From NCBI GenBank assembly GCA_905221615.1, contig CAJNDT010000136.1, positions 124,001 through 188,000 of the forward strand: a stretch of DNA of 64,000 nt, in the 5' to 3' direction. The translations under genes were made by a program, and so were the position numbers. Position 1 is the first letter of the stretch. Every line of letters begins with the position of its first letter. The notes under the pieces are model-generated. The model did not search any database, had not been told where the DNA came from, and saw nothing but the letters and a program-made list of their open reading frames with translations. The DNA comes from Symbiodinium sp. CCMP2592. Its lineage: Eukaryota; Sar; Dinophyceae; Suessiales; Symbiodiniaceae. Shown in pieces: positions 28,130 through 57,465 of the stretch.

Positions 28130-28281
28130 CAGGGCAATATGCAAACTCCGTGAAGCAGCGACTCCGCAATGCCCACATCGTCAAGAACCTCAAGCACCCA
28201 GGCCCCCGATGCTCTTCTTTGTCTATCCACGGAACCTCCTTTGATGAAGTTCAAGATCGTGAGCACCTCCTCGAAGAGGAC
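28130..28281 (-). CDS. Channel exon: post-EF-hand helix, possibly terminal
   Basis: After acceptor CAG|GTC the frame reads VLFEEVLTILNFIK and stays open to TGA at 28130-28132. In this channel family V-E-V-L-F-E-E-V-L follows L-D-I-W-R-M-E-T-K, and the preceding exon ends exactly there. The true 3' boundary is uncertain: a GA or GT donor around 28238-28245 could end it earlier. Confidence 0.65.
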
Positions 28282-28547
28282 CTGACAGAACCCTTCTCAT
28301 CCGAAACCCCAACTAGGAGTGGACCCTTTCGTTGGAGGGATTTTTGCAAAGTAGATGAGCCGTAACCGGGCCGTAACCGCTGTGGGTTCAGGTCAAGGCA
28401 TGCCCAAGCTGTCGGACGAAGTTAGATACTAGTTCTGCAGGTTACCATGTAGAAAACCTGAAGGCCCTAAACCCCGCAACTCCCAAACCGCAAAACTCTG
28501 CACCCTGAACCCCTCATGTCGGCAACCCGAAACCCACTGCCACGAAC

Positions 28548-28583
28548 CTCCAGCTTTGTCTCCATTCGCCAGATGTCCAGGGC
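28548..28583 (-). CDS. Channel exon, 36 nt: C-terminal helix
   Basis: Encodes ALDIWRMETKLE between acceptor AAG|GCC and donor GAG|GT, phase 0 on both sides. AAGGC occurs at both ends of the preceding intron and AGGT at both ends of the following one. Confidence 0.8.
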
Positions 28584-28899
28584 CTTGAGAAGACGTCAAG
28601 CCACGGATACTCTGACTCTGACTCTGACGTCCATGTTTGGGGCCAGGGGTTTAGGAATTAGGGTTGCAGAAGCCTTGGAAGGAATAACGCCGAATAACAT
28701 TCAAGGCTGTGCGTGACGCAAAGACGCACCTATCGCAGGTTTTTCCCTTAGAGGCTGAGTATCGTAAGGTAAAATGGTTGACCTTTGCAATTGTGGTAGG
28801 ATTAGATACCGAACTCCCACAAAGTTAAAGCTTACCTACTCAGCTTTTAAGTTTCCTCTCCACCAGCCCCCAGGATGGCCAACGACGGGTGCTGCGCGC

Positions 28900-28928
28900 C
28901 TTCGCGCCACCCCGGAGGCGAGCGGCAC
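28900..28928 (-). CDS. Channel exon, 29 nt: end of second EF-hand
   Basis: Encodes the end of the EF-hand exit helix: the split Gly codon, then AARLRGGAK. Acceptor CAG|GT, donor AAG|GC. Phase 1 entry matches the preceding exon and phase 0 exit matches the next. Confidence 0.8.
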
Positions 28929-28969
28929 CTGAGTTCGGGGGCTCGGGATACTTCTGTCAATCTGCCTGT

Positions 28970-29152
28970 GTGTGTGTGTGTGCGCTTATGTGTGTATGTG
29001 CGTGTCTGCATACGTGCACACATCATGCATGCATGCATGCAAGCACGGATGTACGTAGGTAGGTGTGTATATGCGCACACACGTGTATATACATATATAT
29101 ATATATATATATATGCGTGTGTGTATGTATGTATGTATGTATGTGCTTGTAT

Positions 29153-29199
<47 letters not shown>

Positions 29200-29345
29200 T
29201 ATGATTATGTACATATACATATGGCATGTATGTATGTATATATATATCTATAGATACATATATATATATATATAGATACACACATACATATTTGTATGTA
29301 TAAGGATGGATGGATAGATAGATAGACTATCAGATAGACAGATGA
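28970..29345. repeat. (GT)n, (AT)n and tetranucleotide microsatellite
   Basis: TGTG, TATG, ATGC and ATAT units alternate, with pure (AT)n at about 29092-29114 and 29156-29195, then GATA/GGAT units to 29345. It lies in the channel intron between the exons at 28900-28928 and 29551-29593. Open frames here are repeat artefacts. Confidence 0.9.
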
Positions 29346-29550
29346 AACCTGTGTAACGCAATTGGGCCGCGCATTGCATGTCAAGGTTCGCGCTCCAACA
29401 GATGATCAAAAAAAGCGTTCATGTCTGAAGACTTAAGGGCTGCAGGTAGGGGACAGTCTGCACTGATCCTTTGGTGCGACAGCTGTTACGATTCGGGTCA
29501 AGGGTTTTAAGCAGCTCGAGAAAGGAGTCCCAGATTGCCGAGACCGCCGC

Positions 29551-29593
29551 CCTCGATGAATTCGGTCAGCGTAATTTCGCCGTCCCCATTGTC
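29551..29593 (-). CDS. Channel exon, 43 nt: second EF-hand loop
   Basis: Encodes DNGDGEITLTEFIE plus one base of Gly. With the Leu from the previous exon the loop reads L1-D-N3-G-D5-G6-E-I8-T-L-T-E12: calcium ligands at 3, 5 and 12 are present but position 1 is Leu, so binding may be weak. Acceptor GAG|GAC, donor probably GC (GAGG|GC); a GT donor six bases further is the alternative and would add two Gly. Confidence 0.85.
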
Positions 29594-29991
29594 CTCGGAG
29601 CTGGAGAACCAACTTGCAGCTTTTGCCAAACCTTCGCCCCTGCATGGGTAGTTCGCAAAATTGGTGTCCTCTGTAGGTTACGTACACAAACAGCACGGCA
29701 ACCTTCTAACACCGACCTTCAAACGCACCCTGATTTAGAGGAACCGTAATGGAGACCCAAGGTTTCTGAATCAGGATCCTGTAGGACCACGACGACAAAG
29801 GAGGACGACGAGGAAGAGGGCTACCTTTACGCCACCGCCACGACGAAGGCATACACCAGATCTCGAAATCCTCCTGCCCTTTTTAGACCCCGATAGGCAG
29901 CAAAAAGAAACCCTGAATCCGGAACCCACAAAAAAGAGCCCTACCCAACCCGCTAAACCCTGTCAGCAAAAGAGAAACCGAGCCAGGGGAC

Positions 29992-30052
29992 CAAGAACTC
30001 AAAGAGGCTCAGCAGATCGTGATACTCCAGCTCCAGCTGGCTCATCCAGAAC
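29992..30052 (-). CDS. Channel exon, 61 nt: inter-EF-hand helix
   Basis: Encodes FWMSQLELEYHDLLSLFEFL after a split Lys codon. This phrase between the EF-hands is, from memory, one of the most conserved parts of dinoflagellate EF-hand channels. Acceptor AAG|G, donor TTG|GT, phases 2 in and 0 out, agreeing with both neighbours. One of the two clear GT donors in the gene. Confidence 0.9.
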
Positions 30053-30829
30053 CTTAGGGCTCAGTTTGGGGTTCAGGGTTTGGGGCTTAAGGGTGTTGTT
30101 GCTAGGGCCATGCGCGCACTGTGAACGAAAACGCTCTCTAAGGCGCCAACTGAAGGCTTTTTGGGGTCTTTGCACGCAGGCCCGAAGAGTACATTGTAGG
30201 TTGGGTTGGTGAGGCTTGGAGGTTCAGGTTGGCGGCTTTGGGGTTTACGGCTTTGTGCTTAGGGTTTGGGGCTACTGGCTTTCAGGGTTCAGGCTCAGGA
30301 AGTTTAGGCTTTAGGACATCTTCAGTGTGTTCGGAGATTGGGTTTCTGTTGTTGCGTCGCATGCTATCAAGGGGCTCCCGGATTCTTTACCCCTCAGGGC
30401 TATGAGGGGTATCAGGGCTTAAGACTTGTCGGGGTTGGGCCGGGGGCCTTTCAGATTTAGGATGTTTGATCTCTTAGTTTATGCTTGCCGAGAGGATGTC
30501 GCTTGAGGCTTTCAAGGTTAAGGCTCGACTGTTCAAGCCGAGGCCCCTTGGGCTGAGGAGTGGGGTTTTAGGGTATAAGGAATGGCGGAACTCTTCTTTC
30601 GATCCTGTGTGCACAAGTTTAGAGGACTGCAGCGGCCGCGCTGCTTGAATATACACCTCTGCGCGCTTGTGCTTGAAGGCTTAAGTGCACGACAGCATGT
30701 GCGCATGTGCGTATGTCCACGCAGTCTTTGTCGGTCCCCAGAGCCCGAAACCCGTAAGCCCTAATGCATCCAGGCCTGCTGAGGGTGTTCCCGAATATAC
30801 TGCTTGGTATCACATATTGGCACCGAACA

Positions 30830-30960
30830 CGTAAACCCTAAACCCTCAACCCCCTACATAAAGCCCCATAAACCCTGAAAACCTAAACCCTATAAACGCT
30901 ATTCACCCTAAACCCCTAAGCCCTAAACCCCTAAACCCCTAAACCCTAAACCGCCATGAC
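30830..30960. repeat. CCCTAAA-like block
   Basis: Dense CCCTAAACCCCTAAA sequence directly 3' (in gene sense) of the channel exon at 30975-31009. Confidence 0.85.
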
Positions 30961-30974
30961 TCCTTCCAAGGAGC

Positions 30975-31009
30975 TTCAGCTTCGGGGACTTGACCAGCTT
31001 GGAGAACTC
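30975..31009 (-). CDS. Channel exon, 35 nt: exit helix of first EF-hand
   Basis: Encodes EFSKLVKSPKL and two bases of Lys. The leading Glu supplies position 12 of the first EF-hand loop, which would otherwise be incomplete. Acceptor CAG|GAG, donor AA|GC, phase 0 in and 2 out. Telomere-like repeat abuts its 3' side. Confidence 0.9.
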
Positions 31010-31035
31010 CTGGTGCGGTTTGGGGCTCCGAAGAA

Positions 31036-31164
31036 CTTACCTTTGGCTAGTAGGGAATATTACCCTATAGGTCCCTTTAAAGGGGCCCTTAAAGGAACCC
31101 TTATGGGGTAGAATTATCACTACTATTACGACCATTCTTCCATTCCCTACTAACCAAAGGTAAG
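31036..31164. mobile_element. Inverted-repeat element family 1, copy a
   Basis: 129 bp between CTTACCTTTGGCTAGTAGGG (31036) and its inverse CCCTACTAACCAAAGGTAAG (ending 31164). The interior is unrelated to a transposase. The same termini bound 53200-53291. Fits a miniature inverted-repeat transposable element within a channel intron. Confidence 0.75.
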
Positions 31165-31565
31165 ACAACACGGAGGATATCATGCGAAGCTGAGTTATAC
31201 AGAGACCCCTGGACAGCCGCAGAGCAGTACTCCTGTTGGTATTTGTTGTTATTGGTATTAGTATACCCTCACGGTGATGATCATGGATTTTACCGTCGCC
31301 CCAGGAAGGACCCCCGCTTCCAGTATTTGCAGCTTTATTTAAGTAAGGTTTCGGGTTTAGGGGTGTAGGGTTTGGACAATGCAGGGGTTTAGGGTTTAAT
31401 GCTGCCTGGGTTTATGGAGGCACGGGTTTTAGGGCCAGGGTTGAGGCCTCAGAGGGACGGGAGACTACGTCGGCTTCACAACCAATAAACCCTATTGGAA
31501 TCCTCCATCGAAACCCTTTCAAAGCACCCTTTTGCGGCTGGGTCTCCCTGATCTCAAAGCACCCT

Positions 31566-31665
31566 ACTTGGAGGTTCATGGGTATAGTTGCAAGTGGGGT
31601 CATGAGTTTCCGAATATGGACCCCACTTATAACCTCCACTGTTAGCTACCCATGAACCCCCAAGT
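31566..31665. mobile_element. Inverted-repeat element family 3, full copy
   Basis: Begins ACTTGGAGGTTCATGGGTA and ends with its near inverse TACCCATGAACCCCCAAGT; inner arms AAGTGGGG and CCCCACTT also pair. About 100 bp. Related termini occur at 23704, 26899-26934, 31974-32006 and 35252. Confidence 0.75.
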
Positions 31666-31793
31666 AGACCCTAAGATCTGAACCCTAAACCCTAAACCCC
31701 AAAACCTTAAACCCGAAACCCCTAAACCCTCAACCCCTAAATTCTAAGAAGCGCTACAACAGCAAGGGCCTTGAAGAACCCTTTGCCAAGCGC

Positions 31794-31850
31794 CTCCAGG
31801 TTGATCGCGCCGTCGCCCGAGAAGTCCATGGTCTGGAACAGCTTCTTCAC
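31794..31850 (-). CDS. Channel exon, 57 nt: first EF-hand loop
   Basis: Encodes VKKLFQTMDFSGDGAINLE. Loop D1-F-S3-G-D5-G6-A-I8-N-L-E11, with position 12 Glu supplied by the next exon, gives a canonical calcium-binding EF-hand. Acceptor CAG|GTG; donor GAG|GC, phase 0. Reading through the donor gives a run without the required position-12 Glu, which supports splicing here. Confidence 0.9.
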
Positions 31851-32828
31851 CTGGCACAGAAAGGGCCCCACTTAAAGAGGGATCTATAGGGACTCTATAA
31901 GGGTAGAGGGTGAGGGCCAACTCCCTGCTATTAGGGATCTACAGGGATGCCATAAGGGTAGAGGGTAGGGCCTACTTGAAGGTCCATGGGCAGTTGTAAG
32001 TAGGGGTTTCAAACAGGGCCTGAGGCTTAAGGCTCAGGGTTTAGGGTGTAAGGGTGCTGACGCTTGTTTCTTCTTTCAACATATCTGGCACAAACAACTG
32101 CTGCATCTAAAGCTTCCAGGTGTGCGGCTTGTTTAAGGTTCTCTCTCTCTTTCTCTCTCTCTGCCAGTGGTCTAGCAGCGCCAGGCAACGCATGGGGTTT
32201 AAGAGTGGCACTTTAACGGAGCCTTTAGCCCTACACCCCAATACTTATTGCAACCCCTATAGCAACCCTTAACTCCGAAGCCATAAACCCGAGACCCGAA
32301 ACTTCTCTTTCCTATGTGTTTCAACCTTAGACCCTTGTTCGGTACAAGATTTTACTTTACAGGCTTAAGGAAACACATTGTTCGCACCAAGGCGCAAGTA
32401 ACAGGTGAGTCAAGTTATAAAGCTAAAAGAAACGTAGGCCCTGTCAGGTGCCCGCCACGGTTGTTTTCCGTCTCCCAGACCCTTGGACCCTTGCCTCCCA
32501 GACTTCGTTTGGGCTTACGGTTTAGAGTCTATCTGGGTTTAGGGTGGAGATCTTCTGGCTTCAGGGCGACGCTGTCTGAAACCTTCGGGCTCAACCCCAA
32601 ACTAACTTCAAGCAACTCTTCCTTTGGTGGTTTGTGGGCTAGGATACAACCCTAAACTTCAACCCAAACACATGTGAGGTTTTGGGGCTTGCGGCTGCGG
32701 GCTACTGGTCCCTAAACCTCAACAAGCTAAACCCTAAATCCTGTTAAGCCCTAAAGCTTTTTAACACAAGCCCTAAGCCCTAAACCCGACCCTTTCGAAT
32801 AACCGCTTCAGATCTATCCGCACACGGC

Positions 32829-32852
32829 CTTGTTCGCATAGAGGGCAATGTC
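32829..32852 (-). CDS. Channel micro-exon, 24 nt
   Basis: Eight codons, DIALYANK, between acceptor GAG|GAC and donor AAG|GC, phase 0. It fills exactly the gap between the E-K-E-K and V-K-K-L-F segments of neighbouring exons; the expected family sequence there is D-I-A-x-Y-x-x-K. Confidence 0.8.
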
Positions 32853-33123
32853 CTCACATTTCAGAGCAGGGTATAGGAGAGCTCTGAACTCCGTCCCGAG
32901 TTCGGGGCTAAGGGCGACATGCTGTTAACTAAGTTTACGCTCTCGCAACTCGACATATTCTGCGGTCAGGCAGACCTCAAGCTAATGACCTCAACTAGCC
33001 CGAAACCCCAAGCCCTACCCTATCAAGGCAGAAGCATACACTGCAAACAAGGAAAGCCTTGCACACCCCAAAAGCCTATGTACATCCCCGCTTACTAAAC
33101 CCTAAACGCATCATTTGCCCGTC

Positions 33124-33168
33124 CTTCTCCTTGTTCTTGAAAGCCAGCTCCTCGTCGGAGCTGGCTGT
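33124..33168 (-). CDS. Channel exon, 45 nt: linker after S6
   Basis: Encodes TASSDEELAFKNKEK between acceptor CAG|ACA and donor AAG|GA, phase 0. T-A-S-S-D-E-E-L-A-F-K is a family hallmark between S6 and the first EF-hand (from memory). One of two exons whose acceptor is not followed by G. Confidence 0.85.
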
Positions 33169-33439
33169 CTGGCCACAAGGCGAGGAGAGCGCTGAGGCTT
33201 TGGAGGCTTCGGAAATTTGGGTCTCGAACCCTATAGGACCCGAATTGTAGGATTTGTTCAAGGATATTGAAGCTTGAGGCGTAGTTAAGACTAGGGCTTT
33301 TGTGGCTTTCTTTGTAATGCAAGTCTGGAGAGGGGCGGCGCAGGGCTTCGTCTCGACGCGGTCAATCCTTGCCTTCCTCGTTTCTGGTTTGGGGCCTGCC
33401 CTGTATGTGCATGGCCCGGGTTTCACGTGTTCAGTTGCC

Positions 33440-33560
33440 GGGTTACGGTTTAGGGTTTAAAATAACCCTAAACCCTACACCCTAAACCCTAAACCCCTGA
33501 ACCCTGAAGCCCTAAACCCTAGTTTAGGGTTTTAGGGTTTTAGGGTGTAGGGTTTCTGGT
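33440..33560. repeat. Telomere-like fold-back
   Basis: CCCTAAACCCTACACCCTAA-type sequence runs to about 33518, then switches at AACCCTAGTTTAGGGTT to TTTTAGGGTTTTAGGGTGTAGGG, the inverse. A short TTTAGGGTTT precedes the C-rich arm. The arms would form a hairpin of about 40 bp. Confidence 0.85.
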
Positions 33561-34100
33561 TTAGGGGTTCACAGGCGGCCTAACGGTGCACGCGTTCTTC
33601 TCACAGCTCTCCTTGGGGAAACGGTGCCTCTTACCAGGATCTAAACTTTCTAAACAAAAGAGCGCTACCAGACGGGGTATCCCTAAACCCCAAAGCCTGG
33701 ACCTTAACTAAATCCTTACAGGCCTTTAACCCTCAAACAAGAACCCCGAAAAGCGCTAACCCTGAGCCAAAAACCCTAAAGCCGCAAAACCTTGAAGGGT
33801 TTGTCTGGGGCCTGCAGTCGGGTTCATGTGAGGCGTAGGTCCGAGGATTCGAAGCTTAGTGCTTTAGCTGACGGGTGATACTCGCACACACGATCTCAGC
33901 GAGGCACAGCTTGTTTCAGGGCTTCGGGTTGGGGGGGTTTAAGAAGGAACCTACCTTTCTAAGGTTCCCTGATATGACTTCTTTATATACGTCCTTGAAA
34001 AGGCAGGTTACCTGGGCTTAAAAGGCCTAGGGGTTCTACACGGTAGTTACGGTTTAGGGCAGTGGAGGGCTAAGGTCTATGGGCTGCAGGGCTGCGAGGC

Positions 34101-34133
34101 CTTCAGGGTCTGTTGCACGAAAATGGCGTTGAC
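34101..34133 (-). CDS. Channel micro-exon, 33 nt: end of S6
   Basis: Eleven codons, VNAIFVQQTLK, acceptor CAG|GTC and donor AAG|GC, phase 0. It is the cytoplasmic end of S6, where the activation gate lies; V-N-A-V-F-I-Q-Q-T is the usual family form. Confidence 0.9.
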
Positions 34134-34238
34134 CTGGCTGCTTCATGCAAAAAGGAATCAGGGAATCCTTGAGCATTTTTAAGGGTTACTATAAGGTATC
34201 TACAAGGGGACCACGGGTAGTAATATGGGTTTTTTTTT

Positions 34239-34776: not shown

Positions 34777-34813
34777 CACATTGATGACGGCGAAGCCCAA
34801 AACGCAGCGGTAC
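34777..34813 (-). CDS. Channel exon, 37 nt: S6 core
   Basis: After one base the frame reads YRCVLGFAVINV, the S6 helix lining the inner pore. Acceptor AAG|G (an alternative CAG lies five bases upstream), donor GTG|GC, phase 0 exit matching the next exon. Confidence 0.85.
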
Positions 34814-36082: not shown

Positions 36083-38989
36083 TCAAGCACCGTCAAGCGC
36101 CTCGGCACTTTCAGCAGAACTTCCGCGTGGCCTCTTCGATGTGCTGACATCGAGGGGCTGACGACGCTTTTTGGGTAAGATCCTCTCGGCGACATCCAGT
36201 AGTCCAGCAATCTGCTCATGGCCACAATGACCAGCCAGCATCATAGCAGTGAAGCCGTCATCGGCAGCTGAGTTCAGGTGGGCGCAAGCATCCACAAGTA
36301 TTCTTACCGCCTCAAGCTGCCCATGTTCAGAAGCTAGCATCAGTTCAGTGGTGCCATCATTGCTGGCCAAGTTCATGTCGGCCCCGGCATCCAGAAGCAA
36401 ACGAGCAATGTCAGCATGGCCGTGTTCACAAGCTAACGCCAGGGCAGTGACACCCTCGTTGTCGCGACCGTTCTTGTTGGCACCAGCTCCCAGCAACAAA
36501 GTAACAGTTTCAGCATGCCCTCCTTCAGAAGCTAGCATCAGGGCGGTGGTGCCATCATTGCTGGCTAAGTTCATGTCAGCCCCGGCATGAAGAAGCACAC
36601 GAGCAATGTCAGCATGGCCGCGTTCACAAGCTAACGCCAGGGCAGTGGCGCCCTCGTTGTCACGTAAGTTCTTGTCGGCACCGGCATCCAGCAGCAAACG
36701 GACAACTTCCGCCTTGCCTTCAAAAGAACCTATAATCATGGCTGTGGTGCCGTCATCGGAGGCAGCAAGGTCCTTGTCGGCACCGGCTTCCAGCAACAAG
36801 CGAGCAATCTCTGTGAAGCCCCCCTGCGAAGCTAATAACAGGGCAGTCGTGCCATCATTGCTGGCTAAGTTCATGTCGGCACGCGCACCCAGTAAAACTC
36901 GTACATTTTCAGTTTCCCCATACTCAGAAGCTAACATGAGGCCGGTGAAGCCGTCGCTGTAACGTCCGTCCGCGTCGACACCGGCATCCAGCAGCGATCG
37001 CAAAATGTCCCTGTGCCCTTCAAAAGAAGCCAACAGCATAGCAGTGAAGCCGCCCTTGTCACGCAAGTCTTTGTCGGCACCGGCTGCCAGCAACGCAACA
37101 ACAATTTCAGTATGCCCTCCTCTAGAAGCTAGCATCAGGGCGGTGGTGCCATCATGACTGGCCAGGTTCATGTCAGCACCGGCATCCAGTAGCAAACGAG
37201 CAATGTCGGCATGACCATTTTCAGAAGCCACCGCCAAGGCAGTGGAACCCTCGAAGTTGCGGCTGTTCTTGTCGGCACCGGCTTCCAGCAAGGAACTAAC
37301 AATTTCGGGATACCCCTCTGTGGAAGCTAACATCAGCGCAGAGGTGCCACTATTGCTGACTAGGTTCATGTCGGCACCGGCATCAAGCAAGAATTTCACA
37401 CTTCCAACTTGGCCGTGCTGAGAAGCTAACATGAGGCCGGTGAAGCCGTCGCTGTAACGTCCGTCCGCGTCGGCACCGGCATCCAGCAGCGATCGCAAAA
37501 TGTCCCTGTGCCCTTCAAAAGAAGCCAACAGCATAGCAGTGAAGCCGCCCTTGTCACGCAAGTCTTTGTCGGCACCGGCTTCCAGCAACGCAAAAACAAT
37601 TTCAGTATGCCCTCCTCTAGAAGCTAGCATCAGGGCGGTGGTGCCATCATGACTGGCCAGGTTCATGTCAGCACCGGCATCCAGTAGCAAACGAGCAATG
37701 TCGGCATGACCATTTTCAGAAGCCACGGCCAAGGCAGTGGAACCCTCGAAGTTGCGGCTGTTCTTGTCGGCACCGGCTTCCAGCAAGGAACTAACAATTT
37801 CGGGATACCCCTCTGTGGAAGCTAACATCAGCGCAGAGGTGCCACTATTGCTGACTAGGTTCATGTCGGCACCGGCATCAAGCAAGAATTTCACACTTCC
37901 AACTTGGCCGTGCTGAGAAGCTAACATGAGGCCGGTGAAGCCGTCGCTGTAACGTCCGTCCGTGTCGGCACCGGCACCCAGCAGCGATCGCAAAATGTCC
38001 CTGTGCCCTTCAAAAGAAGCCAACAGCATAGCAGTGAAGCCGCCCTTGTCACGCAAGTCTTTGTCGGCACCGGCTGCCAGCAACGCAACAACAATTTCAG
38101 CATGCCCTCCTGTAGTAGCTAGCATCAGGGCGGTGGTGCCGTCATTGCTGGCCAAGTTCATGTCGGCACCCGCATCCAGTAGCAAACGAGCAATGTCGGC
38201 ATGACCATTTTCAGAAGCTGCCGCCAGGGCGGTGAAACCATCGTTGCTGCGGCGGTTCTTGTCGGCACCGGCTTCCAGCAACAAGCTAACAATTTCAGTA
38301 TGCCCTCCTGTGGAAGCTAGCAGCAGCGCAGTTGTGCCATCATTGCTTGCTAAGTTCACGTTGGCACCGGCTTCAACAAGCAAACAGGCAATGTCAAAAT
38401 GGCCCTGTTCACAAGCTACCGTCAGGGCAGTGACGCCCTCGTTGTCGCGACTGTTCTTGTCAGCACCGGCTTCTAGCAAGCAACTAACAGTTTCAGCATG
38501 CCCTCCTCCAGAAGCCAAAATCATGGAAGTGGTGCCGTCATCCGAGGCAGCAAAGTCCTTGTCAGCACCGGCTTCCAGCAGCAAACGAACACTCTCAGCA
38601 TTGCCTTGTTGAGACGCCAACATCAGGGCAGTGGTGCCGACATTGGCGGCCGCAAAATCCTTGTCGGCACCGACATCCAGCAGCAACCGCAGAATTGCAG
38701 TATGACCTTCTTCAGAAGCTGCCATCAGGGCAGTGTTGCCGTCGTTGTCACATAAGTTCTTGTCGGCACCGGCGTCCAGCAGCAAATGTACACTTTCCAG
38801 TTGGCCCGCTGCACAAGCTAGTATCAAGGCGGTATCGCCGTCAGTGGTGCGCATGTTCTTGTCCGCACCGGCTTCCAGCAGCAGATGCAGAACTTCCACA
38901 CGGCCTGCGCAAGAAGCCTCCGCCAGCGCACTTCTCCCCTGCGAATCGACCATGTTCGGGTTCTGGGGGTGCTGAAGCATGGTCTCCAC
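36083..38989 (-). CDS. Ankyrin-repeat protein, exon 2 (about 27 repeats)
   Basis: 968 codons after acceptor CAG|GTG at 38990-38991, ending with TAG/TGA-bounded stop near 36083. Starts VETMLQHPQNPNMVD and continues as uninterrupted 33-residue ankyrin repeats of the L-L-L-D-A-G-A-D-M-N-L-A-S-N-D-G-T-T-A-L-M-L-A-S form. The tail, LPKKRRQPLDVSTSKRPRGS, looks like a bipartite nuclear localisation signal. Ankyrin repeats form a solenoid that binds protein partners; no enzymatic domain is present. A block of five repeats (495 bp) is tandemly duplicated. The gene lies within a channel intron on the same strand. Confidence 0.9.
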   Translation of the reverse strand: METMLQHPQNPNMVDSQGRSALAEASCAGRVEVLHLLLEAGADKNMRTTDGDTALILACAAGQLESVHLLLDAGADKNLCDNDGNTALMAASEEGHTAILRLLLDVGADKDFAAANVGTTALMLASQQGNAESVRLLLEAGADKDFAASDDGTTSMILASGGGHAETVSCLLEAGADKNSRDNEGVTALTVACEQGHFDIACLLVEAGANVNLASNDGTTALLLASTGGHTEIVSLLLEAGADKNRRSNDGFTALAAASENGHADIARLLLDAGADMNLASNDGTTALMLATTGGHAEIVVALLAAGADKDLRDKGGFTAMLLASFEGHRDILRSLLGAGADTDGRYSDGFTGLMLASQHGQVGSVKFLLDAGADMNLVSNSGTSALMLASTEGYPEIVSSLLEAGADKNSRNFEGSTALAVASENGHADIARLLLDAGADMNLASHDGTTALMLASRGGHTEIVFALLEAGADKDLRDKGGFTAMLLASFEGHRDILRSLLDAGADADGRYSDGFTGLMLASQHGQVGSVKFLLDAGADMNLVSNSGTSALMLASTEGYPEIVSSLLEAGADKNSRNFEGSTALAVASENGHADIARLLLDAGADMNLASHDGTTALMLASRGGHTEIVVALLAAGADKDLRDKGGFTAMLLASFEGHRDILRSLLDAGVDADGRYSDGFTGLMLASEYGETENVRVLLGARADMNLASNDGTTALLLASQGGFTEIARLLLEAGADKDLAASDDGTTAMIIGSFEGKAEVVRLLLDAGADKNLRDNEGATALALACERGHADIARVLLHAGADMNLASNDGTTALMLASEGGHAETVTLLLGAGANKNGRDNEGVTALALACEHGHADIARLLLDAGADMNLASNDGTTELMLASEHGQLEAVRILVDACAHLNSAADDGFTAMMLAGHCGHEQIAGLLDVAERILPKKRRQPLDVSTSKRPRGSSAESAEALDGA
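36931..38215. repeat. 495-bp tandem repeat inside the ankyrin exon
   Basis: The sequence beginning CTAACATGAGGCCGGTGAAG occurs at 36931, 37426 and 37921, exactly 495 bp apart (165 residues, five ankyrin units). The first two copies are nearly identical; the third follows them to about 38215 and then diverges. Frame is preserved. Recent unequal exchange or slippage is the likely cause. Confidence 0.9.
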
Positions 38990-39082: not shown

Positions 39083-39358
39083 CTCCGTTGTGGCACCGTT
39101 CGCGGCAGCAGTCACCAGCTCGTCGACTTGTGTCTGCGTGGCATCGGCATGCGTAAGCAGGACCAGCTCCAAGTCTAACGGCGAGCTCAATGTGGTAGCA
39201 TCATCTAGAGGACTGCCACAGCAAAACAGTCTTTGACTGAATCGATTTGGCAGGCCGTGCAGACGATTCAGCCGCTGCTTCAATGCCAAAACATTAACCA
39301 CTTCCTCCAAAGGTATGCTCACAACTTCCTCCCCTGACAGCATCCTGATGCGCAGCAT
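39083..39358 (-). CDS. Ankyrin-repeat protein, exon 1: ubiquitin-like domain
   Basis: ATG at 39358 in a good context (GCCACCGCCATGC) opens 92 codons. MLRIRMLSGEEVVSIPLEEV, ALKQRLNRLHGLP, RFSQRLFCCGSPLDD and LDLELVLLTH follow the beta-grasp pattern of ubiquitin-like domains, ending before any di-Gly. Donor GAG|GC at 39082, 93-nt intron, acceptor CAG|GTG; phase 0. Together with exon 2 the protein has about 1060 residues. Ubiquitin-like plus ankyrin fusions of this kind are a large family in Symbiodiniaceae (from memory). Confidence 0.85.
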
Positions 39359-39850: not shown

Positions 39851-40860
39851 ATCAGGAAGATCGCAACTGTCATCGCGTCACGCACGCAGAATATGTCCAA
39901 TTTAACCCTTAATCGCAGCCATGCCGGCATTTTCGTGGCGTCTGTAAATGCATGCGGCTGTTCGGCCCCTGTTTGATGTGAAATGCAGGGAAAGCCCTAG
40001 ACTCCAAACCAAACCCAAGGAAAAAATCCCAGCCAATGATCCCCCAAACCCTAAACCCTAAACCCGGCCCAAGACTCAGGTCATGCAGACAAGGCACAGC
40101 AGGAAGAAGATCGAGTAATACTCGCCAACCTTCGGGGTTTAGGCCGGTTCTGTAGGGGGCTTTGGGCTTTGGTGCTTTCGGGTTTCATGGTTTAGGGATC
40201 AAGGCTAAGTTTTTGGATTGGAGGTTTTTGAGTTTCGGGTCTACAAACCGCCGCGAAAATAGGGAATACACAGTAAAACTTTAAGCGCCTTGACAATCCT
40301 GAACGATGAGTAGCCGTTCAGCAAGTGACCCACAGGCAACGTGCGATGAGAAAATGCACGTCGCAAGACCCTCACTCCCGCGTTGTGACCACAACGGATC
40401 TAGCACACTATTTTTGTCACTCGTGCTCGACAAGTCAGACTCTAGCACACTATACTTTAGTATACTATACTATAGTATAGTCTACTATACTATACTGCCC
40501 ATGTTAAGGTCTTGCTGTATTGCCAATGTGCCACTGCTACGGGCTACCGGCGCGACTTTCGAAGTGGTGCCCCTCTTCGAGGTTTTCTTGATGCCGGGCC
40601 CTAGAAGTGCGACTATCAGAACACAGCGCACCCTCATGCCGAAGCTACACTGTATCCTACTGTACTATAGCATATGATGATATGATATAGCATATCAGAA
40701 TGCATGATTATGATATCATCTGCTATGTTATGTTTTGCTTTATTAAACTATAGTACATAATCTTCGATTTTTTCTATTGCGCATCCAGCCTGCTACCGCC
40801 TCTGCTCGGGACCTGGTGTAGAACGCTACCTAGCAGGATACCGAGTTATCCCGAGCTTCT
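39851..40860. other. Channel intron sequence, AT-rich palindromic tract
   Basis: Telomere-like fragments at 40040-40070 and 40130-40250. 40440-40495 is built of TATACTATAGTATAGT-type self-complementary units and 40640-40760 of ATATGATATGATATAGCATA. No exon recognised. Confidence 0.5.
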
Positions 40861-40945: not shown

Positions 40946-40980
40946 ATCCCGAGCTTCTAAAAACCCCCAGCCAGGTCTGC

Positions 40981-41092
40981 CGGGAGACGTACTCCACGAG
41001 AACGCGACATGGAGGCCCCCAGTTCGCAAACAGGATTTCCTTGGCAATCGTCGATATCGATGCATCCATCAACGCGCGGAAAGTTGTTGAGG
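40981..41092 (-). CDS. Channel exon: pore helix and selectivity filter
   Basis: The core (40981-41039) reads EILFANWGPPCRVLVEYVS, the P-loop. The filter motif F-A-N-W lacks the Glu or Asp usual in Na and Ca channels. With acceptor CAG|CC at 41092 the phase agrees with the preceding exon and adds ASTTFRALMDASISTIAK, somewhat longer than expected; starting at AAG|GAA (41039) gives the better family match but wrong phase. Donor probably GC at 40980-40979. Confidence 0.75.
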
Positions 41093-41557
41093 CTGCACCC
41101 TGTCGCGTAGTAGTCGTCGCAGGCAAAATGATGAGTTTTGGGGGTTAGGGTTTGAGGTTTACAGTTTGGGGCTTCGGCTTAGGGTCCAGAGGTTTAGGGT
41201 CAAGGTTTAGGGTTTAGGGCTCGGGGTCTGGGGAATAATGAACGAAAAACGAGCATATAGGCAAACATGATACACTGCGACTCTCAAGCCTGCGAGACTG
41301 AAAATTTGTCGAAAGGTGCTGCCAAGCCTCAAACATGCTGAGGAAGGTCCGGGTGAAGGTACCTTGCATAAGCATAGGTTTACAACAGCATCGGGCTCTA
41401 CATAGCCCACGTCCGTAGGTGCTGCAGCCTCAGACCAGATAGAAGCTCCGCCAGAAACAGATCGCAAGGCACCGACCACATCTTCCCTGAATCCCGTCGG
41501 CCAGCAGAATGGCCGAAGCCATGCACTAAACCTCTGAAGCCCCAAAAGGCATGTGGC

Positions 41558-41606
41558 CGTAGTAGCGGAAGACCTCCTCACGCTCGTTGTTGGGTTGGTT
41601 TTCGTC
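41558..41606 (-). CDS. Channel exon, 49 nt: S5-pore turret
   Basis: Encodes DENQPNNEREEVFRYY and one base. R-E-E-V-F-x-Y-Y-G is the usual turret before the pore helix in these channels. Acceptor CAG|GAC, donor G|GC, phase 0 in and 1 out. Confidence 0.85.
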
Positions 41607-41689
41607 CTGCGATATCTAGGGGCTGCCATCACCCATGCTGTTCGGCGGCACTCTGACCCCAGACCCTAAACCTGACCCTCGAATCAGTC

Positions 41690-41738
41690 CGTAACGAAAT
41701 CACGGACCAGCGTAGAGACGACCATGCCGGCAACGCAC
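41690..41738 (-). CDS. Channel exon, 49 nt: second half of S5
   Basis: After completing a Gln codon it reads CVAGMVVSTLVRDFVT. Acceptor CAG|G, donor ACG|GA (an alternative GT donor six bases earlier). The intron to the next exon is only 83 nt, and GGAC is shared at both ends. Confidence 0.9.
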
Positions 41739-42050: not shown

Positions 42051-42092
42051 TGCAGGAAGGTCAGAAGGCAGAAGCTCCAGAAGAGCATACCC
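42051..42092 (-). CDS. Channel exon, 42 nt: first half of S5
   Basis: Completes an Arg codon, then GMLFWSFCLLTFL and two bases of Gln. Acceptor CAG|G, donor CA|GC. The phase on both sides agrees with neighbours, giving an uninterrupted S5 helix across two exons. Confidence 0.9.
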
Positions 42093-42639
42093 CTGCCGTG
42101 CCGTGGGCTTTTTGTGCTCTTGCTGAAAGACTTAACTTAAGCTACCATTATGACAGGGATCTATAGTACATAATATGGTTTCTTGCGTATGTTAACTTAA
42201 ACTCAACCCTTCAACCCTTTAACAAGAACCCAGTGTTGGGGTCAAGGGCTGAGGGTTCAGGATTTAGGGTTTGTTGGCTTTTCGGCTTTGGGATGTAGGG
42301 CTCAGGGGCTCGGCGGCCTTGGGGCGTGGGCTTTTGCACGTTGGGGTCTCACACTTTGGGGTTTAGGGCTTCGGGCTTGGAGTGTAGAGTTGAATGCGCG
42401 GCTGTTGGGGCTCAAGATGTATTAAGTGCTGCTGCGGCTGGGTCCTCTATGAAGATTCAGGCTAACTTCTAGCTGGGCCGAAGCTTCCTGGCTTCACGCT
42501 GAAAGTAGTGTTCCGTTGGGAAGGTCGGTGGTCTTCAAGGGACTTCAACATGTCGCAAGGTTCGGATCCCCGGGTCGTGCTACTTAGCCACATCAACAGG
42601 GACACAGAAGGCACTGCCACTAGGATCCCCCTAAACCCT

Positions 42640-42740
42640 AAGCTAAACCCCTACACACTAAACCCAAAACCGTAAACCCTAAACCCTGAACTAAACTCTA
42701 AACCCTAAACCCTAAGCTAAACCTAACCTAAACCCAAAAC
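42640..42740. repeat. CCCTAAA/CCTAAGCTAAA-like block
   Basis: Run of CCCTAAACCCTGAACTAAAC-type sequence with CTAAGCTAAACC variants, inside the channel intron between exons 42051-42092 and 43011-43055. Confidence 0.85.
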
Positions 42741-43010
42741 CCGAAACCCTACACTGCACCCTACGCTCTAAACCTTACACCCAAACTTAGGCAACTTACG
42801 GTCCTCAGGGCCTCGGTGGGTCTCTCGCAGAGAGCCTTCTTCCAAAGTACACACTGCCCTCTTCCACACAGCCTCAAACAAAACCTTGAAACATCCCTAC
42901 AACACCCACTGTACAATCCGAAAAACCTCTCGAATAAAGCCGGCTATGAAAATCTTATAAACGCTAAACCCTAAAACCTCACGGAACCCAGGGCCCTTAG
43001 TTCCCAGGGC

Positions 43011-43055
43011 CTGCTAGCAGTGAGTCCCTTCACGAGGAGCTGCAGTGACGCCAGC
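43011..43055 (-). CDS. Channel exon, 45 nt: S4-S5 linker
   Basis: Completes a Val codon, then LASLQLLVKGLTAS and two bases of Arg. L-x-S-L-Q-L-L-V-K-C-L is the family form. Acceptor GAG|G, donor AG|GC; its exit phase fits the S5 exon exactly. Confidence 0.85.
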
Positions 43056-43236
43056 CTCATTCCACACTTTCTCGGGGATCTCTTTTTTGCAGCTCTAAGG
43101 ATGGTTCAATGTTGAATTTCTAAGCTTATTGTCTGTAGAGTTTGGGTTTTTTGGGGTTTAGGCCTCCCGCACCTGCCTCCTATCAGCTGAGAACTTGCCC
43201 CCATCCTACGAGTCGCGGCCACGGGGCGCGTTGGTC

Positions 43237-43304
43237 ACCGGCAGCATGCGCAGCGCCCGCGCGAGCTTGCCGATGCGCAGCAGCCGGAAGAGCGCCGGGT
43301 TGAT
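43237..43304 (-). CDS. Channel exon: S4 voltage sensor
   Basis: Encodes INPALFRLLRIGKLARALRM then L-P. Positive residues recur every third position (R-x-x-R-x-x-K-x-x-R-x-x-R), the voltage-sensor signature. Acceptor CAG|ATC. The donor is either GT at 43238 (phase 0) or GA at 43236 (phase 2); only GA keeps frame with the next exon. Strikingly GC-rich compared with surrounding filler. Confidence 0.9.
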
Positions 43305-44254
43305 CTGGGACGGGGCGGCTCGGAAGGAGCCCTGGCTGGGAGATCTTTCGGCTGAGTAGAACAACACTAAAAAAACAGAAATACTCTTCAAGGAATGCTA
43401 TAGTAATACCATAACTGTATTATGACCATAACGACACTACGAGACAGTTTAGGGTCCGGGAAAAGGTTCCAGGAGTCCTTCTGAAGTGGTGTCCGCTTTG
43501 CATGTAAGAAGGGGCAGGAGCAATGTTTCGGGGAGGGCTTGGTCTTGACACCATACCCGCCTAGCCCGCTGCCCCATCCATTATTTGGAATGGATGGGCT
43601 CGGTCTTTACAAAGGGATGTGCGCCTCCTTGTTAAAGGCGAGTGCCCTGTGTTAGGGCTTCGAGGCACTCCGACTTTGTGGTGTAACAGCAAAGACGGTC
43701 AGGAATGTACCAAGCAAGAGCAAGCATCGGTCAAGTATAGGCCCAAACACAAGGCTCTCGTCGGGTGCCTCTCTGTTGCTGCCCTGCCTTTGCTCTCTCC
43801 CTCTCTCTCTCCCTCTGTGTCTCCCTCTACGACTCCGCGCTTTGCTGGCAGCCCTGAAGCTTCAACCTCACAGGCCCTGAATCACGGAGGTTTTGCCTTT
43901 TTCTAGGCTTCGGAACCAACTTGGGGTTCCCACGGCTCCGGAAAAAGGGACACGTCAAAACCCTGGGTTTAGAACCACCACCCAGCTCAAAGATTTGGCA
44001 AAGGCACCGGAAAGGGCACGGCGTAGTACGTCAGAACCTCGGCCAAGAAAGGGCACGGCAGGACTTCCCTAAACCCTAGACCTTTAGCAGCTGAAGGCCT
44101 GGCCTTAACTTCCATGCTCTCACGGCACTCTTGGGATCGTATACTCGGCCCAGGGGTTTAGGGCTTAGGGTTTATGCATGCGGTCTCTCGGACAGTCTCG
44201 AAGCAACCACTTGGAGACTAGACTACAGAATGATAAATTACGAATTGGAGTCAA

Positions 44255-47200
44255 TCAGCGATTCTGCCTGTGGAATCGCCTTGACCTTGCAAAGACCTGC
44301 TGTGGGTCCGGATACTCGAGCTGGCTAACCAGGGGAGTCCTGGGAGCCACATAACAAGTCTTGAGGAACAATCTGTACTCCCTGCCGCACATATCTCGAT
44401 GGATCTTCTGTACAATAGTCGCCGCATGAGGCAGCTTCGGCCGGAACAGAACTGCTGGAACTTTACAAGGAACACCTACAAATCTCAGGGCTGGCATGTT
44501 CTGGATATTCCAATCACATTTACAACGCTGCAACACGGAACGCACCGTGTGTGCGAAAGTTACAAGTTGGCAGGTGAGGGCTTGCCGATGCAAGGTAAGC
44601 TGTGGGTACTGTGTTTCATGCACCCAAAGTGACTTGACCTTAACACCCTTACACCCAACGGGCCTAACACTATCCACCCAACTAGCCAAATTCAAGGGAA
44701 CTACCCACCCCGTCTGGCCGGTGAACGCGTAGTACATCTCCAGCAAGGAGAAGCCCCCGGGATCCCAAACCCACTCAACAGAACTAAACCACCTAAACAG
44801 GAGTTGCCCAAAAGGCGCGCACAGTAGGAAATACCTCCAGTCGGGCTCGCAATCTTTGCCAGGGAATGGAACCCCTACATCACAGAGCATCATGCCAAGA
44901 GCTTGCAACTTTAGTTGCAGTGCATCCTCGCTGACCCTCTCAACACATGAGGTTCTTTTAGCCTGGCGAAAACAACTCGAAACCCCAAGCTGCAGCTGAT
45001 AAACTGCATCTTGACGAATACAAGAAACCTGCCATGCCATCTGTGCTTTCGCATGTGCTTCAAGCACCCCAGAACCGAAACCCTGCATGGCGCTCTTGGC
45101 GCACGCATCAGCCTGATGGTTGTGATACCAGAGCCATGCGTGGTGAGCATCTGGTGCAGTCCGCCACTCACGGTGACTTTCTACTTTGATGATGCGCCAC
45201 GGCCGCGGGGACCTCTGCAAGGCAGCATTACTCGAACTCCACACATCAAGATTCGCATGCTTGCGCCACAACAGTGGTGACCATCCCTCCTGCTGGAGTT
45301 TACGAAAACCGGAGACGGCAACTTCTGAATCAGAGTAGATTGCACCGCCTGTGCCTGAGAGAACCGCCGCCAGAACGGCTAGCAACTCCGCGCGATTATT
45401 CGTTTGCTGCTCCCCAGGAACAACCCCTTTAACAACCCTAGCCCCATCTAGCTTCTCAGGTTCCGCTATTACCACCCCCCATGCAGACAGAGACAAACAC
45501 GGATTTTCTGGACAGATAGTCGATCCATCCGTGAAAAGGTGCACATCTTCATCGAACAGTTCAGGCACATCTGCCCACTGCAGTTGCTGAAGCGCAGCAT
45601 GAAAATCTTTGACTTCTTGAGGAACTTTAAACAAACCCCACTGCACCTCAAAAGAATCACAAAGCCGAAGGGTATCCAAGATGCTTTCTCTGCACGGCAC
45701 AGTGGCAAGGCAATGCAACAGCATGTGCTCAGTTGTTAAAACATCATCACAAAATGGGCAATTCAGATCCGCATCACCCGTGAAATGTTTGCGGCGCTCA
45801 GCCGGGACAATGGCCCCACACGCATAGTTGGCAACATGCGCATTATACCCCTGCTTAGTCTCCAAACGGGACCGCACTCGGACTACTGAAAACTCCTCTA
45901 AACCACAAAGACCCTTGCAAGACTGAACTTGGGCACAGACATGCGTCTCCCAGGCAGCTAACAGCTTGCCCCACACGAACGTCCACTTGGAAAAATACAC
46001 ATGCAAAGCAACTCCTTGAGGCAAAACAACATGTCCATTGGCTTGAGGCTCCCACCCCAGAAACTGCAGGTCAAGGAAAAACAGCGACAAAGGCCCCACA
46101 CCCTTAGAAACGCTCACTCCTACAAAAAAATTCCACTTTGCGGCAAAATCCGGCTCAGTAGCCCAAATTCTACGCAGTGTCTGCCAGCGCTTCTTGAAAA
46201 CTAGCAGCCAAGGTTCATAAATGTGGCTTCCAGCAACCAGCGGGGCAAGATAGTGATTGCGCTGCGAATGCTCACCCCAAATCGCTTTGTTGGATTTACC
46301 TCTTAAACATCTAAAAGACGAGTCTGAGATGCTGGCCATCTCACAACCATACAATGTAGCCGGCAAGATAACCTTTGTCAAGGCTTTTACTTTCCTGTCG
46401 GCACCCCATTTTACAAGTTGCAACTTTTGAAACTTCCCAGCATTTTTCTCCAACCTATTTTGGAAACCTTTAGCACATCCCCTAGCTCTAGCACTACACA
46501 CCACCCCCAAGTCGGTGAAATCGTGAACAACAGGAATTGACACCCCTTCCAGCACCGTGCGGCGCAAAAAGCTACGACCTTCTTTCGTGGTTGCGTACGC
46601 AAACGACTTACTCAAGGACACTGTCATCGCCAATTGCGACGTAGTCGATGTGATACATGCAACAGCTTCAGTGGCACTTGCCCCTGAGCTAGCCTGAACC
46701 GTCCAGTTATCTACATACGACTTCATGGGCACACTGTGCTTGATTTCAACTTCGGTCGAAACCAACCATGTGATCGCAATCATTGAAACAACCGCCAATG
46801 GACATCCTTCAGGGACACCGGTATGACTGAACACCGGTGCCGAGAAATGTTCACCTACCCTAAAATGCCTCCTAACCCCTTTCAAAAAAGCAGCATACGC
46901 ATTCCTAAGGGTGGCAGGCCACCCTAAACGCTCGGCTGCCAAGTCCAAAACGGGCCTAGAAATAGTATTATATGCCTTACTAAGATCTAGGGCGAATCCT
47001 ACGAGTGGTTGACCGGAGCACAAAGAAAATTCGATTTCATTTTGCAAGATCCAGGCTAGGTCCATAGCCGACTTGCCAGGCACAGAACCACACAATGTTG
47101 ATGGAAGATGCGGCAAAATAGCGGCATACACCTTTGCAGCCTGACACCTCGCCCAAACTCTATAGATAGACGCAAGCACCGTGATTGGCCGGGCATCTGC

Positions 47201-47430
47201 TGGCGACTCTGGCTGCGCACACTTCCCTAGTAATGTAACGGCAGCATCAAGAAGAGGCTGCGGCCACTTCCCAGTGCTGGTGATACTGTTCAACATGTGA
47301 AGGAGCATTTTTACGAGTTCAGGAGGCAGCGCTTTCAACTCTGGGAAAGAAAACCCATCCAAGCCCCTAGCCTTACCATTTTTTGACGTTTTAAGGGCCC
47401 ACTCCAACTCGCTTACAGTGATGGTCGAGG
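44255..47430 (-). CDS. Reverse transcriptase with RNase H domain, intact long ORF
   Basis: About 1050 codons without a stop. Near the N-terminus KARGLDGFSFPELKALP; motif A is FALDLSKAYNT (Asp about 141), motif B GVPEGCPLAV (about 197-206), and motif C YVDNW (231-235), with Asn for the second Asp. Further on, FTDGSTICPE, NNRAELLAVLAAV, IYSDSEVAVSGF and a later HQADACA give the D-E-D-D set of RNase H. A C-x2-C..H-x4-C-like zinc segment (CPFCDDVLTTEHMLLHC) precedes RNase H. The ORF has no ATG at its N-terminus and no endonuclease; conserved sequence begins right after telomere-like DNA at about 47430-47450. It sits in the channel intron between the S3 and S4 exons, same strand. Confidence 0.85.
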
Positions 47431-47475
47431 GCTTAGGGTTTAAAGTTTAAGGGTGTAGGCAGTTTAGGGCTTGGG
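47431..47475. repeat. Telomere-like junction of the reverse transcriptase insert
   Basis: GCTTAGGGTTTAAAGTTTAA then GTTTAGGGC directly abuts the first conserved codons of the reverse transcriptase ORF. Another GTTTAGGGCTTAGGGTTTA lies at about 44155-44175, some 80 bp past its stop. Confidence 0.75.
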
Positions 47476-47514
47476 GTCCTCGCAATCTCCTGGCTGTGGA
47501 GGCAACCAGGGGAC

Positions 47515-47565
47515 CTCCATCAAGGAGACAATCGTCACAAGCACATCGACGTAGTTCAACCAAAC
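47515..47565 (-). CDS. Channel exon, 51 nt: S3 segment
   Basis: Encodes VWLNYVDVLVTIVSLME between acceptor CAG|GTT and donor GAG|GT, phase 0. The W-x-x-x-D pattern in a hydrophobic helix is the S3 signature of voltage sensors. It lies between the S2 and S4 exons in gene order. Confidence 0.75.
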
Positions 47566-47992
47566 CTGTGCCGGCGCAGGGAGCTCTGAAGCCCAAGTCA
47601 TGGGTCTAGGCTTTTTTGAACGCCTTTTTCCTCCCGCCCGTTGGGTTGCTCAGAATCCACAATTGTGAAAGGCTTCCGCAGGGTTTAGGGTTTAGGGAGC
47701 TCCGATGGATCCCTCCATCTTGAAACAGGACAGCCACACGCCTAACCTCTAAAAGGACCCTAAACATCTCGATAGCTGGGCTGGACCCCCCAGGCCTCTG
47801 GACATACTAGCTGATAAAGTCCACGACTTGCCAAACAACCCCGAAGGCCGGAGCAATGCAGCACGAAAGGGTAGCAAAGGCAGGCACGACCTTCTGTTGC
47901 CACGAATGCTCGGGAATAACCCAAACCCTTGCAAGTGCAGCGGCAAGAAAAGGGGGGTCCAGGGGTTCGCGAGTGGGTTTCCACACTCCTGC

Positions 47993-48051
47993 CTTCCAGA
48001 ACGCCAGTCCCAGCACAGCGATGCGGATGCCCACATCCAGAAAGAAGAGGC
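47993..48051 (-). CDS. Channel exon, 59 nt: S2 segment
   Basis: After two bases reads LFFLDVGIRIAVLGLAFWK. The D-x-x-x-R pair in a hydrophobic helix is the S2 counter-charge signature. Acceptor CAG|GC, donor AAG|GC, phase 0 out. Reading through gives an open but unrelated frame to 47807. Confidence 0.65.
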
Positions 48052-48146
48052 CTGTAGCTGAGGGAGCAGCGTTCGGCGATGAGCTAGGCGCAATATTACG
48101 GAAATTCCCGTGAAACTGTCTGTTCGAAGGCACCACACCAGCGCTC

Positions 48147-48182
48147 TGTACAAGCAGTCCAGGATCCAGTGCAGCCAAAACC
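48147..48182 (-). CDS. Tentative channel exon: start of S2
   Basis: Reads FWLHWILDCLY and one base, with acceptor TAG|GG and a GA donor. Its exit phase fits the S2 exon and would extend the S2 helix. The short length and weak acceptor leave it uncertain. Confidence 0.4.
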
Positions 48183-57460: not shown

Positions 57461-57465
57461 ACCAT

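Follow-up and report, generated by a model that had tools for sequence, protein, structure and literature searches.

The DNA analysed here (the window) is a stretch of 64,000 nucleotides from Symbiodinium sp. CCMP2592 (contig CAJNDT010000136.1, positions 124,001 to 188,000), a strain called S. tridacnidorum, with an assembly GC content of 51.01%, in the accessible part of PMC8045281, which also mentions data on full-length transcripts. The minus strand of the window carries a gene of 48 small exons, with a reverse transcriptase open reading frame (ORF) and a nested ankyrin gene lying inside two of its introns (Table 1). The sequence points very strongly to one complete gene of this strain, or of a near-identical one, for a single-domain voltage-gated cation channel with six transmembrane segments (6TM; S1 to S6) and a pair of EF-hands behind S6. 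An initial annotation, made from the letters of the window, had placed about 20 micro-exons of a voltage-gated EF-hand channel at 28130-48182. This interval is indeed part of the gene and holds 22 exons (24 to 45), which measure 24 to 77 nt rather than the 24 to 68 nt first given, but the gene also takes in exons 1 to 23 (60471-48297), which encode the N-terminus, S1 and the beginning of S2, as well as three downstream exons (27946-23653, up to the stop codon).

The exon structure was determined using a custom splice-aware dynamic-programming aligner, in which a protein query is aligned to genomic DNA with GT, GC or GA donors and AG acceptors only. A small bonus was given to AG followed by G (AG/G) and a small penalty to GA donors; other splice sites cannot appear. 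With P0122 (NCBI 'ycf45', Symbiodinium sp. CCMP2456, 669 aa) as the query, 48 exons were obtained on the minus strand with a score of 2654, running from an ATG at 60471 to an exon end at 23653, which is followed by TAA. The gene spans 36.8 kb, and its coding sequence of 2004 nt (668 aa) contains no stop or frameshift. Exons range from 19 to 77 nt (mean 41.8, median 41) and the 47 introns from 83 to 5284 nt (median 427), with intron phases 0/1/2 in the proportion 25/7/15 and a GC fraction of 0.589 in exons and 0.507 in introns. Exons this short are common in Symbiodiniaceae; no relevant paper on microexons in Symbiodinium was found in the open literature. The donors were GC in 28 introns, GT in 12 and GA in seven, and the acceptors were AG/G in 45 and AG/A in two. 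GC and GA donors beside GT, together with AG acceptors, fit dinoflagellate cis-splicing, but with the donor choice restricted by the aligner; the usable sites were imposed and are not independent evidence. According to the available text of PMC11453091, GC and GA donors are ordinary in Symbiodiniaceae (25-74%). Three junctions picked out in the initial annotation (43011/42092, 42051/41738 and 30975/30052) reappeared in the spliced alignment as exact intron boundaries with the same split codons.

Score controls all belong to a second query of 534 residues, combined from P0036 and P0001, and not to the P0122 query of the 48-exon model. Aligned to 14000-64000, the 534-residue query yielded 39 minus-strand exons with a score of 2117; the plus strand scored 214 and the reversed query 243. 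Twenty dinucleotide-shuffled versions of the DNA scored 221 +/- 10 with this query (maximum 236), and ten shuffled versions of the query itself averaged 229 (maximum 259).

Pfam analysis of the spliced protein revealed a single Ion_trans stretch in the 668 residues (70.9 bits, cut-off 25; residues 250-501, profile 3-230 of 241), indicating a single 6TM domain, as well as EF-hand_1 (33.5 bits, cut-off 25.4) and EF-hand_7 (34.1 bits, cut-off 30). The reading of the protein as a voltage-gated EF-hand channel was thereby supported, and the order first proposed on the minus strand (S2, S3, S4, linker, S5, pore, S6 and two EF-hands) was recovered. With limits set by eye, S1 falls in exons 18-21, S2 in 23-24, S3 in 25-26, S4 in 27, the S4-S5 linker in 27-29, S5 in 29-30, the pore in 31-33, S6 in 34-36, EF-hand 1 in 39-40 and EF-hand 2 in 41-42. 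The S4 segment, RLLRIGKLARALR, has basic residues (R, R, K, R, R) at every third position, and the loop of EF-hand 1 is canonical (DFSGDGAINLEE).

A protein search with the spliced and translated gene, the check suggested with the initial annotation, produced a full-length alignment to EF-hand channel homologs, and the dinoflagellate family named there was found. The closest full-length relatives are 94.6-97.2% identical: P0122 over 632 of 668 aligned residues, P0123 (590 aa, exons 6-48) over 561 of 588 and P0121 (567 aa, exons 8-48) over 550 of 566. They differ from the window channel by strain-level substitutions, many of them N-terminal, and are probably its orthologs. The contigs carrying P0121 and P0123 are at most 2138 and 2174 bp long, too small for introns, and as they leave no intron room these proteins would come from spliced RNA or from processed copies of near-identical genes. 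The family is large, as at least 273 proteins pass among 7991 scored candidates. The named sources among the matches listed (Symbiodinium, Cladocopium, Durusdinium, Effrenium and Polarella) are all dinoflagellates, and the family is likely, though not proven, to be restricted to them. This channel family is one already known, and the window gene is a new and now complete member of it. One other member, P0224 ('Skav202946', scaffold422:437215:438924), has 569 aa in a record of about 1.7 kb, as against 48 exons in the window gene, and is probably intronless. Several family members carry the names of unrelated genes (P0122, P0124 and P0036 'ycf45'; P0059 'zupT'; P0218 'Zinc transporter ZupT'; P0297 'Kif21a'), which seem to be mislabels that were transferred or arose from fusions.

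The initial annotation had also held that an ORF-based annotation would miss the gene entirely. This is true of ORF lists, as the longest exon has 77 nt. The last 23 exons, however, are represented in the NCBI protein P0001 ('Catsper1', Symbiodinium sp. CCMP2592, 325 aa), of which 321 residues are identical to the model from exon 26 to the stop. The remaining four residues, MEVK, are encoded at 44115-44104 in intron 25 (ATGGAAGTTAAG) and are followed by a GC donor. P0001 lacks exons 1-25, and with them the N-terminus, S1, S2 and most of S3. Because an intronic start that arose by accident is hardly to be expected in the protein of a different strain, we infer that P0001 comes from the same locus and is very probably a truncated model of the window gene that begins just past the reverse transcriptase ORF. 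Among the matches listed, no CCMP2592 protein is near-identical to the N-terminal half of the channel, and the other CCMP2592 proteins there, P0131 and P0152, are only 58 and 62% identical and represent paralogs. As names, 'ycf45' and 'Catsper1' of the NCBI records seem to be unsuitable labels assigned automatically.

The selectivity filter of the channel is MFEILFANWGPP within the pore YYGTFTRTFLSMFEILFANWGPP, and FANWGPP contains no acidic residue; the high-field-strength site, at which NaVAb has its ring-forming Glu, is Ala. The filter was surveyed in 297 homologs, made up of the 120 matches listed from each of three overlapping sets of 154, 273 and 192, and 271 of these span it, 269 without extra residues there. 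The high-field-strength column was Ala in 264 of the 269, and the upstream filter Glu was retained in 266. No acid follows MFE in 268; the exception, P0047 (MFEILFLEEAEP), which may be a faulty model, carries acids within the nine following columns. Two more proteins have insertions in the filter, and one row consists entirely of gaps. When a 151-aa segment was aligned by phmmer with three bacterial 'Ion transport protein' entries, FANW was paired with their FESW, LESW or LETW, one filter residue being absent ahead of FANW; in the alignment with NaVEh the Glu of TGESW faces a gap. These matches are all weak (E 0.0026 to 0.01).

In the accessible parts of the literature, EukCatA has the filter TLDAWAD and EukCatB TGESWSE (PMC8002053), EukCatC has Glu at the high-field-strength site and CatSper1 an aspartate beacon (PMC10120453), and four-domain protist channels are often EEEE (PMC5824947, PMC6259924). 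The filter of the window channel was not found described in what was available of PMC10120453, PMC5824947, PMC6259924, PMC7576140, PMC8002053 and PMC7935092, with Helliwell 2019 and 2020 outside this scope. CatSper1, the name attached to P0001, was rejected as an identity because FANWGPP lacks any acid that could stand for the aspartate beacon, and a four-domain CaV or NaV channel was ruled out by the single Ion_trans repeat in the chain. NaVEh/EukCatB of Emiliania huxleyi (PDB 7x5v and 8j7m) shares 14-17% identity with the channel model in structural alignments, and its filter TGESWSE differs from FANWGPP, with a one-residue gap at the Glu. For the pore-to-EF-hand part 7x5v was the top PDB match, with a weak E of 0.0026 (2.8e-11 with a profile). 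The bacterial channels NaVAb and CaVAb offer a 6TM template with an alignable pore loop, but have the acidic filter TLESW and are matched without the EF-hand part. The best whole-profile PDB sequence match was domain IV of the T-type channel CaV3 (7wli, E 1.3e-23), which has four domains per chain where the window channel has one. By its predicted sequence the channel therefore resembles the single-domain voltage-gated channels, yet its filter departs from those of EukCat and CatSper1. If functional, it might represent a voltage-gated cation pore of eukaryotes that selects ions in a new way, is regulated through its C-terminal EF-hands and stands apart from EukCat A, B and C, a proposal to which we would give somewhat less than an even chance.

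Other explanations of the locus were considered. The exons might be chance peptide phrases selected by eye, as the fragments were at first picked without tools, both in the initial annotation and in a 281-aa draft joined by eye. That draft nevertheless matched Pfam Ion_trans (53.9 bits) and EF-hand_7 (38.3 bits) and at least 154 database proteins, with P0001 the best among the 120 listed, and the controls reached about one tenth of the observed score while 321 residues were identical to a public protein, so that this idea is already refuted and has practically no chance of being right. It is also very unlikely that there are two genes here, with exons 1-25 as an independent or degenerate fragment and a functional gene that begins near 44 kb. 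P0001 does run from the ATG at 44115 to the stop, and the 3.5-kb intron 25 contains the reverse transcriptase ORF, but both halves occur in the single proteins P0121, P0122 and P0123, all three of which match the S3 exon 25 at 17 of 17 residues. P0001 by itself would lack the first helices noted above, and its MEVK start is not shared by P0036, P0121, P0122 and P0123, close homologs that have MEV[LM]TYY at that place. A pseudogene with all exons present and its expression or splicing lost is improbable to the same degree: introns of up to 5.3 kb, two of them with inserted coding elements, and the probable existence of intronless family copies such as P0224 would suit it, whereas the spliced coding sequence is free of stops and frameshifts over its 2004 nt and its product matches P0122 at 94.6% of the 668 residues aligned, which speaks against a pseudogene.

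That the channel belongs to an already named class, the Na+-selective EukCats and specifically the dinoflagellate EukCatC, would be compatible with the gene model and appears rather unlikely. A single domain, a dinoflagellate source and C-terminal EF-hands as in EukCatB (available text of PMC8002053) speak for it, as does the rank of 7x5v, though weak, among the PDB matches; the Glu expected in EukCatC (accessible part of PMC10120453) stands against the Ala of the surveyed homologs, EukCatC being compared by description and not by sequence. Some observations weigh against the reading of the locus as one complete EF-hand channel gene. Exons 1-5 draw their support entirely from predicted proteins of other genomes (P0122, and P0124 from exon 5), and exon 1, with 8 of 11 residues identical to P0122, is the weakest of all. 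The EF-hand 2 loop, LDNGDGEITLTE, is non-standard, having Leu at loop position 1 when set against the usual consensus. The predicted structure is poor at the end of S4 and in the S4-S5 linker (predicted local distance difference test, pLDDT, 44-77 over residues 261-300), superpositions spanning sensor and pore give a root-mean-square deviation of at least 11 A, and with a single-sequence query the PDB matches to the pore part stay weak, none being better than that of 7x5v.

With the gene taken as one complete channel gene, its pre-mRNA would be cut at 47 introns by ordinary dinoflagellate cis-splicing (GC/GT/GA donors; AG/G acceptors), and this splicing would also discard the retrotransposon ORF and the whole nested gene. 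Four subunits would then assemble, depolarisation would move S4 with its R/R/K/R/R series, and the S6 gate would open, while Ca2+ at EF-hand 1, and perhaps also at the atypical EF-hand 2, may tune the gating. Selectivity would probably be achieved without the usual four-glutamate ring, because the filter has Ala and not Glu at the ring site. To our knowledge, the ion channels of coral symbionts are largely uncharacterised. The locus illustrates how small exons defeat annotation, with 668 codons in 48 exons averaging 42 nt, none of which gives a useful ORF, and a public model of almost surely the same locus loses the first helices of the voltage sensor where a retrotransposon ORF occupies an intron. 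The conserved acid-free filter raises a question that electrophysiology can test, namely what this abundant class of dinoflagellate channels conducts.

Table 1. Channel gene exons and features nested in its introns (window coordinates; fractions are residues identical to the proteins named)
Feature	Coordinates	Strand	Evidence
Exon 1 (start codon; N-terminus)	60438..60471	-	P0122 8/11, P0122 only
Exon 2	59886..59920	-	P0122 12/12
Exon 3	59058..59095	-	P0122 11/12
Exon 4	57954..57995	-	P0122 12/13
Exon 5	57354..57424	-	P0122 22/23
Exon 6 (P0123 starts here)	56486..56535	-	P0122 16/17
Exon 7	55975..56001	-	P0122, P0123 9/9
Exon 8	55625..55674	-	P0121 16/16
Exon 9	54689..54743	-	P0121 15/18
Exon 10	54200..54256	-	P0122 18/19
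Exon 11	53868..53886	-	three homologs 6/6
Exon 12	52904..52961	-	P0122 16/19
Exon 13	52344..52377	-	P0122, P0121 11/11
Exon 14	51930..51953	-	P0121, P0123 8/8
Exon 15	51579..51616	-	three homologs 12/12
Exon 16	51141..51203	-	three homologs 20/20
Exon 17	50736..50769	-	P0121 11/11
Exon 18 (S1 begins)	50484..50515	-	three homologs 10/10
Exon 19 (S1)	50059..50077	-	three homologs 6/6
Exon 20 (S1)	49670..49702	-	three homologs 11/11
Exon 21 (S1 end, S1-S2 loop)	49374..49399	-	three homologs 8/8
Exon 22 (S1-S2 loop)	48610..48660	-	P0121 15/16
Exon 23 (S2 begins)	48297..48337	-	P0121 13/13
Exon 24 (S2)	47993..48051	-	P0121 20/20
Exon 25 (S3)	47515..47565	-	three homologs (P0121, P0122, P0123) 17/17; missing from P0001
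Reverse transcriptase - RNase H ORF, 1050 aa, inside intron 25, not channel-coding	44255..47407	-	RVT_1 42 bits, RNase_H 39.6 bits
Apparently false first exon of P0001 (MEVK), inside intron 25	44104..44115	-	
Exon 26 (S3 end, S3-S4 loop)	44008..44037	-	P0001 10/10
Exon 27 (S4 voltage sensor, RLLRIGKLARALR)	43228..43304	-	four homologs 25/25
Exon 28 (S4-S5 linker)	43011..43055	-	P0001 14/14
Exon 29 (S5)	42051..42092	-	four homologs 13/13
Exon 30 (S5)	41690..41738	-	P0001 16/16
Exon 31 (turret, start of pore helix region)	41558..41606	-	P0001 16/16
Exon 32 (P1 helix, ...SMF)	41331..41362	-	four homologs 11/11
Exon 33 (filter EILFANWGPP, P2)	40989..41039	-	four homologs 17/17
Exon 34 (S6 begins)	40098..40129	-	four homologs 10/10
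Nested ankyrin gene exon 1, intron 34 (N-terminal part)	39083..39358	-	no Pfam match; limits by eye
Nested ankyrin gene exon 2, intron 34 (ankyrin repeats)	36083..38989	-	
Exon 35 (S6)	34777..34813	-	four homologs 12/12
Exon 36 (S6 end)	34101..34133	-	four homologs 11/11
Exon 37	33124..33168	-	P0001 15/15
Exon 38	32829..32852	-	four homologs 8/8
Exon 39 (EF-hand 1)	31794..31850	-	four homologs 19/19
Exon 40 (EF-hand 1 end)	30975..31009	-	four homologs 11/11
Exon 41 (EF-hand 2 begins)	29992..30052	-	four homologs 20/20
Exon 42 (EF-hand 2 loop DNGDGEITLTE)	29551..29593	-	four homologs 14/14
Exon 43	28900..28928	-	four homologs 10/10
Exon 44	28548..28583	-	four homologs 12/12
Exon 45	28236..28281	-	four homologs 15/15
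Exon 46	27906..27946	-	P0001 14/14
Exon 47	27483..27502	-	four homologs 6/6
Exon 48 (C-terminus ...GRQRSAE 23701-23653; stop TAA 23652-23650)	23650..23701	-	four homologs 16/16

Telomere-like CCCTAAA stretches flank the reverse transcriptase ORF in intron 25, right next to which the P0001 model begins, and PADLOC gave only a weak generic reverse transcriptase match for this ORF. The ankyrin gene in intron 34 is open, lies on the strand of the channel and encodes 1060 aa in all from its two exons, which are separated by a 93-nt GC-AG intron with limits set by eye and not checked against homologs. Its repeat region consists of about 3.3 copies of a 495-nt unit with 91% match. One possibility is that its transcript receives a spliced leader by trans-splicing; a scan of the window for the dinoflagellate spliced leader (DinoSL) gave nine weak matches, none near the start of the nested gene at 39358, and the two best partial matches (one mismatch in 12) lie inside the reverse transcriptase ORF (46026) and inside an intron (33772). 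A second, possibly degenerate reverse transcriptase-like stretch with the motif AWADD was seen by eye at 10785-13303 on the plus strand, where Pfam found no domain in the ORFs 10785-11696 and 12441-13124. At E 0.001 Pfam found no domain in five other ORFs of the window, and Rfam and tRNA scans of the window gave no match. Long simple repeats at about 28850-29330 and 57247-57823 (TA/CA-rich and ATT/AAT-rich runs) create spurious long ORFs.

An origin of the introns from introners was not supported, as intron ends, examined for inverted repeats shared within an intron and for similarity between introns, yielded only short matches, many of them telomere-like. Over the outer 60 nt, the complementarity of an intron's own ends was 12.9 compared with 12.7 for ends of other introns, and one of 47 introns exceeded the 95th percentile, old or degenerate introners being beyond the reach of this test. 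The heptamer TTTAGGG occurs 188 times on the two strands of the window against 12.0 +/- 3.6 expected, an excess of about 16-fold, with 145 copies falling in the introns (34.8 kb), 43 beyond the gene (27.2 kb) and none in the 2004-nt coding sequence; TTTAGGG/CCCTAAA heptamers are spread over introns and spacer at 16700-61500. TTTAGGG leans to the 5' ends of introns and CCCTAAA to the 3' ends: in the outer 100 nt this holds for 14 + 6 ends and fails for 4 + 1 (p 0.004), with p 0.005 at 150 nt and 0.009 at 200 nt. This end-wise sign test was chosen after the pattern had been seen, in one gene, and the orientation is a lead only. Over their outer 100 nt the channel introns (23702-60437) are rich in G+T on the 5' side and in C+A on the 3' side, and at 30-60 nt into the introns the GC skew is +0.23 from the 5' end and -0.18 from the 3' end.

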